DNA from: Natrarchaeobius oligotrophus
GTDB taxonomy: Archaea; Halobacteriota; Halobacteria; Halobacteriales; Natrialbaceae
NCBI RefSeq assembly: GCF_003841465.1
Contig: NZ_REFZ01000003.1
Coordinates: 1-64,000, forward strand
Reading direction: 5' to 3'
DNA: 64,000 nt
In this document: positions 2,558 through 5,496 of the stretch, one piece after another
Numbering within the stretch: position 1 is the first letter of the stretch
Layout of the letters: the number at the start of each line of letters is the position of its first letter
Notes under the pieces: generated by a model
What the model saw: the letters and a program-made list of their open reading frames with translations, nothing else
What the model was told of the DNA's origin: nothing
The model's database searches: none
Position numbers and translations under genes: made by a program

Positions 2558-3573
2558 TCAGAGCCCGACGCTTCCGACGAGCAGTAACGCGAGCAGGATG
2601 GCCGCGAGAACGAACCCGATCGCCAGCGGCACGTTCTCTCTCGCCTTTTCGTGGAGCGCCATCCCCTCGTACTCCTCGCGAAACGCCTCGAGGTTCCCCT
2701 CGTCGAAGAAGTACTTCGTCTTCAGCGCGAATCGCTCGGTGACGGCACAGCCGGTACAGACCGGCTCGCCCTCGAGGCGCTCCGTGCGGACGTGGTCGCC
2801 GCAGTTGAGACTGCCGCAGTTGTCGCAGTAGGTGATTTCGGCGTCCGCCGTCCCGCAGTGGACGCACCGCCGGAAGTCGTTCGTCACGACGGCGCGCTCG
2901 CGACCCGCGGCGACGTACTCGTACCGGTAGTCGTACTCGCCGAGCGACAGCGTCGCGTCGACGCGCGGGAGGGAGACCGGATCGATCGAGCGAACGGTCA
3001 CGTCGGATCGATTCGGCGTGCAGGTCTTCTCGTAGTCGACGTTGTTATCCCCGGTGTAGTGGACGGTCTCGGTGTGGATCGCCCGGAGCTTGTCGATCGC
3101 CCACTCCTTGTAGGCCGTCTCGGTCCGGCCGAACCGCGTTCGGGAGACGTCGTCGAAGCGCTCCTCGAGGTCGGGTCGACGATCTTCGAGGTCGATTCGC
3201 GGCCCGTCGTGGTTCTCGACGAGCGACCGAATCGGGCCGCTCGCGACGCGAGGGCGGTCGTCTCGTCCAGCCGGTGGACGACGCCGACCGACGTCTCGAA
3301 GGTCGCGTTCGTCCGGGCGGTCACCGTCACGACCGGCTCGAACTCGAGGGTTGCGTCGGGGTCGGGGATCGACGCCGGCTCGAGGTTGGCGACGTCCGCG
3401 ATCGCGTCGACGAGGGGCGCGCTCGAGCCGTTCGTCGGATGGATGGGCCGGAACCCCTCGTCGCAGAGGATCTCGATCCGTCCGTTGTAGAGGTTCATGC
3501 CGATGTCGTCGCCGATCTCCCGGAGGTCGGCGCCGTTGATCGGTAGCGACCACCTGTTCACCGCGTTGGTCAT
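2558..3573 (-). pseudogene. Zinc-ribbon membrane protein, frameshifted
   Basis: Two minus-strand reading frames join into one protein. The N-terminal part begins at the ATG at 3571-3573 (MTNAVNRWSLPI) and runs to about 3240; the C-terminal part continues in another frame from GPIRSLVENHD. The break lies in a short G/C run at about 3232-3241 and would be healed by adding one G. The C-terminal half has two zinc-knuckle pairs (CVHCG, CDNCGSLNCGDH, CTGC) and one C-terminal membrane helix, so a cytoplasmic or exported head anchored by its tail. The family is unknown to me. It could be a real inactivating mutation or a sequencing error. Confidence 0.6.
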
Positions 3574-3978
3574 GGACGTCCCCGTCTTCGGTTCGGAAAT
3601 CGCCGTCGACAAAATATCGCGATACGTGGCGTCAAAGGCGGCGATATAGCCGTTGCGATCAACGGACGCCGGTCATCTTGTGCGCTCGTGATTTTGGGAG
3701 CCAACGTGCTTTCGCCCGTGTCAACGGAGGGCGATCCAACCGAGATGTTCTCACATCGGTGTTGCTGTTTAGGTTTTGTTTATGATATATTTATAATCCC
3801 TAATATTTTAATATGTATATTATACATTAATAGATGGAAGAAAATAAACCATCCTATGTAGATGGTAGAGCGATATGCTAAGCATAGATTCAAGCAGATG
3901 ATCCAACATTATTATACATTATTGACTTAATTAAATAGGGATAAGAAATAATATAATTCCATTCGTCGAATTTACTCG
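3574..3978. other. Intergenic: left edge of the AT-rich island
   Basis: From about 3750 the base composition switches abruptly from GC-rich to AT-rich and stays so to about 5098. No gene is seen in this stretch. It holds a perfect inverted repeat at 3813-3827 (ATGTATA-T-TATACAT) whose half-sites match the one at 10919-10937, and a likely archaeal TATA box at 3947-3958 (AATAATATAATT) spaced about 27 bases from the ATG at 3979, which suggests a leaderless transcript for the halocin-like gene. Confidence 0.5.
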
Positions 3979-4968
3979 ATGTCTGAAGATAGAGATGTGG
4001 TGAACCGGCGAAAAGTGCTAAAAAAGAGTGCCACCAGCACGGGTATTGGCATTATTGGGTCGAGTCAGTCAGTCTTTGCGGCAAGGAACACGAAATCAAA
4101 TGAGCAGAAACAGTTAGAGAAATTGGATGAGGTACAGTTAATCCTTAACGAACTTGAGGAGGAGAAATTACCTGGCATAGAAAAGTTTGAAACGATTGAA
4201 TCCAACTCAAGTGATGTTGTATTAACAAAGGTTGAATTCCCTTACGGGACAATGAGAGTTGGGAAGGTTGGCAATACCATAGAAGCTGCATTTGAATTTT
4301 CTGACAGTGAAAATAGCAATATATACAGCAGTAAACCTCCTAAAAAATACCGAGAAATTCCTGGAGAAGGCGGTTGGTTGTTGTCAGATGGTGATGAGAT
4401 CGTGTTCCGCCGAAATGCAACTAGACAAGAGCAAGAGGCTGCTCTTGCTGAGTCCTCTCTTGAAGAAGATGAAGTAGTAGACGTTTACGCGGAATCTGGT
4501 ATTGCTGGTCTCAAAATACTTTCCGTTGACGAGTCTGGAGATGAATTCGAAGTAAAAGAGTATATTGTACATTCAGACAGTGATTCTGCCTCTATTGTCT
4601 CCACTGAAATATCATCTTTAAAAGATACGGAACTCATTGCACACAGTTCTGCTTCTTCTGATGATCTTTCTACAAATGTTACGCACAACAGCGTCCCGGA
4701 TCCAAGAGATATCGCAGAAGAATTTATCGAATCAGAGAGTATCGATGATCCAGTGTACGATTGTGGCACCCAACTTACATGGTGCGTACGAAGTATCGCT
4801 GTCACTACCTCATCATGCGCTCGATGCGCACCAGGTTGTCTCGGAAGTCCGACTGGTGTTGGTGCGGCAATCTGCGTTATTTGTGTCCTTGCTACCTGTT
4901 CTCACCTTATAACTGGAGGTGTGTGTATTGCTGCTATGGACTGTTTAGATGAAAACGGACATATATAG
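3979..4968 (+). CDS. Halocin C8-like microhalocin precursor
   Basis: A 329-residue protein. Residues 8-35 form a Tat-type signal (NRRKVLKK then a weakly hydrophobic stretch ending VFAA). Residues about 36-255 are an acidic, cysteine-free propeptide. The last 70 residues hold all ten cysteines of the protein (262, 269, 280, 283, 287, 299, 302, 307, 316, 322), with Gly/Ala-rich hydrophobic spacing. This matches the known halocin C8 precursor: Tat signal, N-terminal immunity part (HalI), and a C-terminal ten-cysteine peptide antibiotic of about 76 residues. Sequence identity to HalC8 looks low, so function is inferred from architecture. Codon use is AT-rich, unlike its neighbours, indicating transfer. 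No dedicated transporter or regulator gene lies beside it. Confidence 0.7.
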   Translation: MSEDRDVVNRRKVLKKSATSTGIGIIGSSQSVFAARNTKSNEQKQLEKLDEVQLILNELEEEKLPGIEKFETIESNSSDVVLTKVEFPYGTMRVGKVGNTIEAAFEFSDSENSNIYSSKPPKKYREIPGEGGWLLSDGDEIVFRRNATRQEQEAALAESSLEEDEVVDVYAESGIAGLKILSVDESGDEFEVKEYIVHSDSDSASIVSTEISSLKDTELIAHSSASSDDLSTNVTHNSVPDPRDIAEEFIESESIDDPVYDCGTQLTWCVRSIAVTTSSCARCAPGCLGSPTGVGAAICVICVLATCSHLITGGVCIAAMDCLDENGHI

Positions 4969-5496
4969 AATCGTTACTTCTCAGGCTTATCTGGCACTCT
5001 CTAGTTCAACATCTTTTGATGGCGTCTATCTGTCAGCGCCCACTCATCAAGATACCGTCAATTTTGTTGTGTGCTATAGTAATTAAACTTCTAATTCCTC
5101 GGCTTCCTGCTCCGACTGGGTTACGAAATCTGGGAGGTCCGCGACAAGCGAGACGCCTCCGCGACGCTGCAGACGATCGGCGTCTACATCGCCGTCGCCG
5201 GCGTCTTCGTCCACGTCCTCCAGCTCGTGATGCGGTACGTCCTCTCGCAGGACTAGCGGTCAGTTCGCTACCGGCGCTCGTCCTCGAGTCACTCACCTCG
5301 CGCCGACTCCGTTCGGGTCGTGTGGGCTCCGTTCGTGCGACGGAAATCGACGTCTCCGTCGATCGTCCGCGTGATCGCGTCCTTTATCCGTGCAGATCTT
5401 ATATAGTGGTTATCCGATCGCCTGCGACCCGCGAGGAGTCTCGTCGGCGGTCTACGGGTTCCGCTACAGCGGACGTTGCTATCCCCTCTTCGCACC
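4969..5496. other. Intergenic: right edge of the AT-rich island
   Basis: The AT-rich island ends at about 5098. The next 150 bases hold the truncated gene tail annotated separately. From 5257 to 5496 I see no gene. A TATA-like box (CTTATATAGT) at 5398-5407 is the best promoter candidate for the histidine kinase, leaving a leader of about 60-70 bases. I found no clear direct repeats that would mark the island's insertion ends. Confidence 0.4.
5095..5256 (+). pseudogene. 3' remnant of a membrane-protein gene
   Basis: The frame from 5095 to a TAG at 5254-5256 reads as good haloarchaeal protein: a charged loop (YEIWEVRDKRDASATLQ), a membrane helix (TIGVYIAVAGVFVHVLQLV) and a short tail. The frame is closed by TAA at 5092-5094, exactly where the sequence turns AT-rich, and there is no start codon. 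It looks like the last 50 or so codons of a gene whose front was lost when the AT-rich segment arrived. The family is not recognised. Confidence 0.55.

Follow-up and report, generated by a model that had tools for sequence, protein, structure and literature searches.

A probable Tat-exported antimicrobial precursor of Natrarchaeobius oligotrophus from a family separate from halocin C8, with tail cysteines that vary in nested pairs

The window analyzed here, the first 64,000 nucleotides of contig NZ_REFZ01000003.1 of Natrarchaeobius oligotrophus, contains a gene at 3979-4968 (plus strand) whose 329-residue product is best explained, with reasonable though far from full confidence, as the Tat-exported precursor of an antimicrobial peptide belonging to a family separate from halocin C8. 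About 60 members of this unnamed family, all with a common layout, occur across six families of Halobacteria. The new element is the cysteine pattern of the C-terminal tail, in which pairwise gain and loss of cysteines describe a nested ladder.

The gene is real: it is an open reading frame with an ATG start (the coordinates include the stop codon) and it has about 60 relatives. A TATA-like stretch, AATAATATAATT, read by eye at 3947..3958 (plus strand), lies 21-32 bases upstream of the ATG and is a candidate element placed as for a leaderless haloarchaeal transcript. The protein begins with a Tat signal (about residues 1-34, 3979..4080, plus strand) carrying the motif NRRKVLKK, in which the twin arginine R10-R11 is unchanged across an alignment of 34 relatives; the cleavage point is a presumed one. 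Tat models matched 9 of 19 relatives and gave no match for the window protein itself, nor did NCBIfam and Pfam scans of that protein. The signal is followed by an acidic, cysteine-free propeptide (residues 35-261, 4081..4761, plus strand), putatively the maturation or self-immunity part, in which residues 35-255 include 50 acidic and 20 basic residues and zero cysteines. The remainder is the cysteine tail (residues 262-329, 4762..4965, plus strand), for which four helices and nested disulfides are predicted from co-loss analysis and AlphaFold2. The cysteines of the precursor are found only at residues 262, 269, 280, 283, 287, 299, 302, 307, 316, and 322, so that all ten fall within its last 68 residues. 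The tail has a GRAVY of 0.88 and a mass of about 7.1 kDa. As about 60 proteins with 20-45% identity share this layout, it is evidently not a product of chance.

An earlier note on the window had recognized the two-part design, in which a cysteine-free propeptide behind a Tat signal precedes a ten-cysteine tail of about 70 residues. This design holds up, with a propeptide that is acidic and a tail that is hydrophobic. The cysteine spacing that it gave (6-10-2-3-11-2-4-8-5) is exact, and its coordinates and composition were also right. It had further seen no transporter or regulator beside the gene, and the neighbors are indeed an Mrr-type endonuclease gene that is truncated and one encoding a MEDS sensor histidine kinase, with neither a protease gene nor an accessory gene adjoining.

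The gene sits in an AT-rich insert (3666..5094) that was delimited by composition and by flanks that both match congeners. Its GC content is 0.43 (0.34 at third codon positions) versus about 0.65 in the surroundings. Three congeners have an uninterrupted membrane-protein gene of about 232 codons, of which the window retains two pieces with the AT-rich DNA between them: a decayed piece at 3547..3665 (plus strand; 69% to L094:2438-2557 of a congener) and the last 52 codons plus the stop codon at 5095..5257 (plus strand; 87-91% to the three congeners). As the three congeners keep the gene intact and the window has only these two pieces, the insertion is specific to the window genome among the four genomes compared. 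The uninterrupted genes and the GC contrast bear out the earlier proposal of a foreign origin, and the insert is taken to be foreign on these sequence grounds. Neither direct repeats nor mobile-element ends were found at its borders. The Mrr-type gene is a truncated, frame-broken pseudogene (2558..3612, minus strand) that lacks the catalytic-domain part and gave no Pfam match; the intact copy in the congener (L094:734-2152) has Mrr_cat at 3e-24.

Relatives of the window protein were found in 17 of the 125 genomes of its own taxonomic family (itself included). A profile search of the class gave convincing scores (rows under E 1e-10) in about 36 of 391 genomes from six families, and further members came from two families that were searched whole. 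The collection of 64 distinct proteins or fragments consists almost entirely of sequences in which the RR signal is followed by a propeptide about 200 residues long and then by a cysteine-bearing tail. In public records the members are called "hypothetical protein" or "twin-arginine translocation signal domain-containing protein". The genome-contig search gave one named relative, from Natronolimnohabitans sp. A-GB9, and no relatives were found in viral contigs and phages. Members average a lower GC content than their flanks (51 of the 64 collected) and tandem members are frequent (L099, L105, L085, and L124). We counted this mobile, tandem, AT-rich habit toward an antimicrobial reading, along with the members on the plasmid of a halocin producer and the recurrent neighbors described below, and counted against it that no member has an experimentally assigned function and that the window gene lies apart from any protease or accessory gene. 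Note that two loci have propeptides that stand apart from a tail. L150:1185-1721 (minus strand; G073) is a propeptide-only ORF of 178 residues, and L151 (plus strand; G054) has a propeptide ORF at 1588-2142 with the tail in a separate ORF at 2200-2445. Such ORFs represent either gene decay or immunity proteins that stand alone.

In the mechanism that we propose, the folded precursor would exit the cell by the Tat route and a protease would then cut just ahead of the first tail cysteine, at about residue 255-261, to free a peptide of about 7 kDa that is neutral and hydrophobic. For cuts between residues 254 and 262 the expected mass is about 6.7-7.7 kDa, and five disulfides would lower it by 10 Da relative to the reduced peptide. 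The freed peptide would consist of four short helices held by five nested disulfides that link helices 1 and 4 and helices 2 and 3 in a saposin-like manner, and its target would probably be the membranes of related haloarchaea. The acidic propeptide may keep the peptide harmless or bind it afterwards, so that a single gene would also provide self-immunity. Alternatively, the tail could remain on the propeptide as an anchor to the surface or membrane, or as a domain with a structural or adhesive role, and have no antimicrobial action. The hydrophobicity of the tails (median GRAVY 1.07 over 60 tails) and the lack of a known cleavage site are in keeping with such a role, which we nevertheless consider unlikely, given that several members have charged or proline-rich extensions past the tail and that the distribution, which is patchy and includes tandem and plasmid-borne genes, is more in character for a weapon than for a housekeeping part.

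The antimicrobial reading draws on the resemblance to halocin C8 (halC8/proC8), which is likewise made from a single gene encoding a Tat signal, a cysteine-free acidic propeptide, and a hydrophobic C-terminal peptide that has ten cysteines and a mass of about 7 kDa. The HalC8 propeptide is the immunity part (PMC11509114). In size, charge, and hydrophobicity the window tail and propeptide equal those of HalC8, whose peptide as read from L133 has a GRAVY of 0.89 and a mass of 7.4 kDa. The earlier note had taken the window gene for a divergent halocin C8 and had named a profile search against halocin C8-type domains as a check; that assignment did not survive the search. The TIGR04449 model (halocin_C8_dom, 24 bits) gave no match to the window protein at E 10, none in 19 family members (the window protein and the 18 first relatives), and none in 9 more distant members. 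The window genome has a true halocin C8-domain gene elsewhere (L035:4019-4960 on contig C24, with the domain at C24:24750-24947), which served as the positive control and scored 32.5 bits in a direct scan. The domain was found by search in 30 of the 125 genomes of the same taxonomic family.

Homology hidden in the propeptide or the tail was considered and rejected. Comparison of 45 with 20 propeptides without their Tat signals by hhalign gave a probability of 0.4%, tail profiles of the window family and HalC8-type proteins gave 0.5% and 4.5%, and the only alignment between profiles was over the Tat signal. The twin-arginine signal of the halocin C8 family is present in the window family (the invariant RR, plus the Tat models in relatives) whereas a HalI-type propeptide is not, as judged by the 0.4% value. 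The halocin C8 tail (69-76 residues) is matched in its number of cysteines, ten, but its spacing (2-7-3-7-13-7-8-8-5) differs from that of the window. Moreover, unlike halocin C8, the window family varies in cysteine number from 8 to 14, in nested pairs. A distant place within the halocin C8 family is thus improbable: the shared layout, size, charge, and cysteine number, together with the palindromic spacing of some HalC8-type tails (7-11-3-11-3-11-7 in the L035 gene), which is compatible with the same nested topology, would favor it, but it is opposed by the missing TIGR04449 matches, the low probabilities for both halves, and the different cysteine spacing. At the level of profiles, kinship to HalC8 is absent, and the window protein is best placed in a separate family that is HalC8-like by design.

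The cysteines of the tails were assigned to twelve positions by spacing alone, blind to pairing. The commonest full tail is C1-3-C2-2-C3-(6-11)-C4-2-C5-3-C6-11-C7-2-C8-4-C9-(6-9)-C10-2-C11-2-C12. All 59 tails having at least eight cysteines have an even number. Pairing was tested in 42 well-mapped, non-redundant tails, 29 of which lack cysteines, and 28 of these 29 lack exactly nested pairs. The lost pairs were 2+11 (16 tails), 6+7 (5), 4+9 (4), 1+12 (3), and 5+8 (3), and cysteines 3 and 10 were never lost. Among the 10,395 perfect pairings, the nested pairing (1-12, 2-11, 3-10, 4-9, 5-8, and 6-7) is the single best, with 2 mismatches versus 8 for the next best. When all tails were used, the poorly mapped included, it was still the single best (30 versus 34); 10 aberrant tails fit the twelve-position scheme poorly. 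On a tree made from the propeptides only, there are 12 changes counting one cysteine per pair (1, 5, 0, 2, 1, and 3) and the nested pairing requires 2 discordant changes versus a median of 23; support on the tree is modest and the fair count is about a dozen events. The sole exception is the tail at L008, which diverges after C7 and may be decayed.

These comparisons indicate that the cysteines are gained and lost as coupled, fixed pairs, which are presumably disulfides. As the window protein is of the type that lacks C2 and C11, its predicted disulfides are 262-322, 269-316, 280-307, 283-302, and 287-299. Binding of metal or iron-sulfur clusters by the tail of an exported redox or metal-handling protein would suit the CxxC and CxxCxxC patterns of the tails, the very weak Fer4 matches in two members (E 0.15-0.35), and a Tat route that carries folded, cofactor-bound proteins, but is very unlikely. 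The cysteines disappear in twos, as far-apart pairs (2 with 11, 4 with 9), and not as sets of four ligands; the tail is hydrophobic, is poor in charged residues, and has no histidine that is conserved; and there is no operon with redox genes. Upon application of the same pairing method to HalC8, the nested order tied with several others, there being too little variation. In a HalC8-type tail at L049:453-1292, cysteines 3 and 8 are missing and either end has an additional cysteine. These changes would be in line with a nested ladder in HalC8 as well, although the cases are too few for a decision.

AlphaFold2 modeling of the window protein gave a mean pLDDT of 48.8 over its full length, with values of about 50-80 in the propeptide between residues 40 and 200 (helices followed by a beta sheet). 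The tail had a mean of 65.5, with helices at 258-274, 280-288, 294-307, and 314-325. The models are of low to moderate confidence owing to an alignment of only three sequences. Each predicted tail helix has one cysteine group, as required by a ladder that pairs the outer two helices (1 and 4) and the inner two (2 and 3). Cysteine co-loss and helix positions both support the nested order, the bonds themselves being predicted. Searches with the propeptide and tail models gave no fold matches worth naming, and the tail (modeled at a pLDDT of only 65.5) matched nothing in the PDB by sequence or fold. Pfam SapB gave no match, and no known antimicrobial was matched by sequence or fold, which we counted against the antimicrobial reading together with the model confidence and the tails that fit the twelve-position scheme poorly. 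As such matches are absent, the saposin-like character is one that we infer from topology.

Saposin-like proteins have a nested disulfide order (1-6, 2-5, and 3-4), and the order predicted here resembles that of NK-lysin and the saposins, although with five to six predicted disulfides rather than three. The window family also differs from these peptides in coming from an archaeal Tat precursor and in the absence of any sequence or fold match to them. Saposin-like peptides such as NK-lysin and the saposins have four to five helices, interhelix disulfides, and membrane activity, and helical antimicrobial peptides are postulated to act on membranes (PMC6072434). Unlike the window family, those helical antimicrobial peptides are cysteine-free and have neither Tat export nor a large propeptide.

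We tentatively propose, at somewhat less than even confidence, that the family is a second, unrecognized class of single-gene archaeal antimicrobials, in which disulfide-ladder, saposin-like peptides would be made from Tat-exported precursors encoded on plasmids and small inserts in at least six families of Halobacteria and would differ by whole disulfide rungs, with HalC8 perhaps alike by topology alone. If so, archaea would have evolved disulfide-stapled saposin-like weapons separately from the bacterial ones, which are free of cysteines. Although halocins have been called nearly universal, genes are known for few of them, and the family offers about 60 halocin candidates, one set of which is on a plasmid of a known producer of halocin HA3. 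The nested pairing amounts to a precise predicted map of the disulfides, and the rung-by-rung loss of cysteines would be a rare case of evolution showing disulfide pairing ahead of any structure.

The HA3 producer, Haloferax larsenii NCIM 5678, is listed as making a halocin of 13 kDa (PMC11509114), and its plasmid pHl5678-1 (NZ_CP078064.1; L198 and L199) encodes five family members and one HalC8-domain gene; WP_258303480.1 is a plasmid-borne member of the family. As the plasmid also has this HalC8-type gene and no published sequence of HA3 was found, we do not assign HA3 to a gene. A membrane protein containing QPEYTGENRC is encoded near 6 of 31 window-family loci and 2 of 21 HalC8-type loci. 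The places at which it recurs beside genes of either kind are L023, L099, L113, L114, L115, L119, L144, L147, and L199. The association exceeds a rough expectation, but nearly all of the family's genomes have several copies; the protein was therefore rejected as a dedicated immunity gene and remains a lead only. M48/HtpX metalloprotease genes also recur beside members, WP_258303652.1 among them. One adjoins a member on pHl5678-1 (L198), another lies at L106, and the others occupy a chromosomal site that three genera share (L100, L102, and L108).
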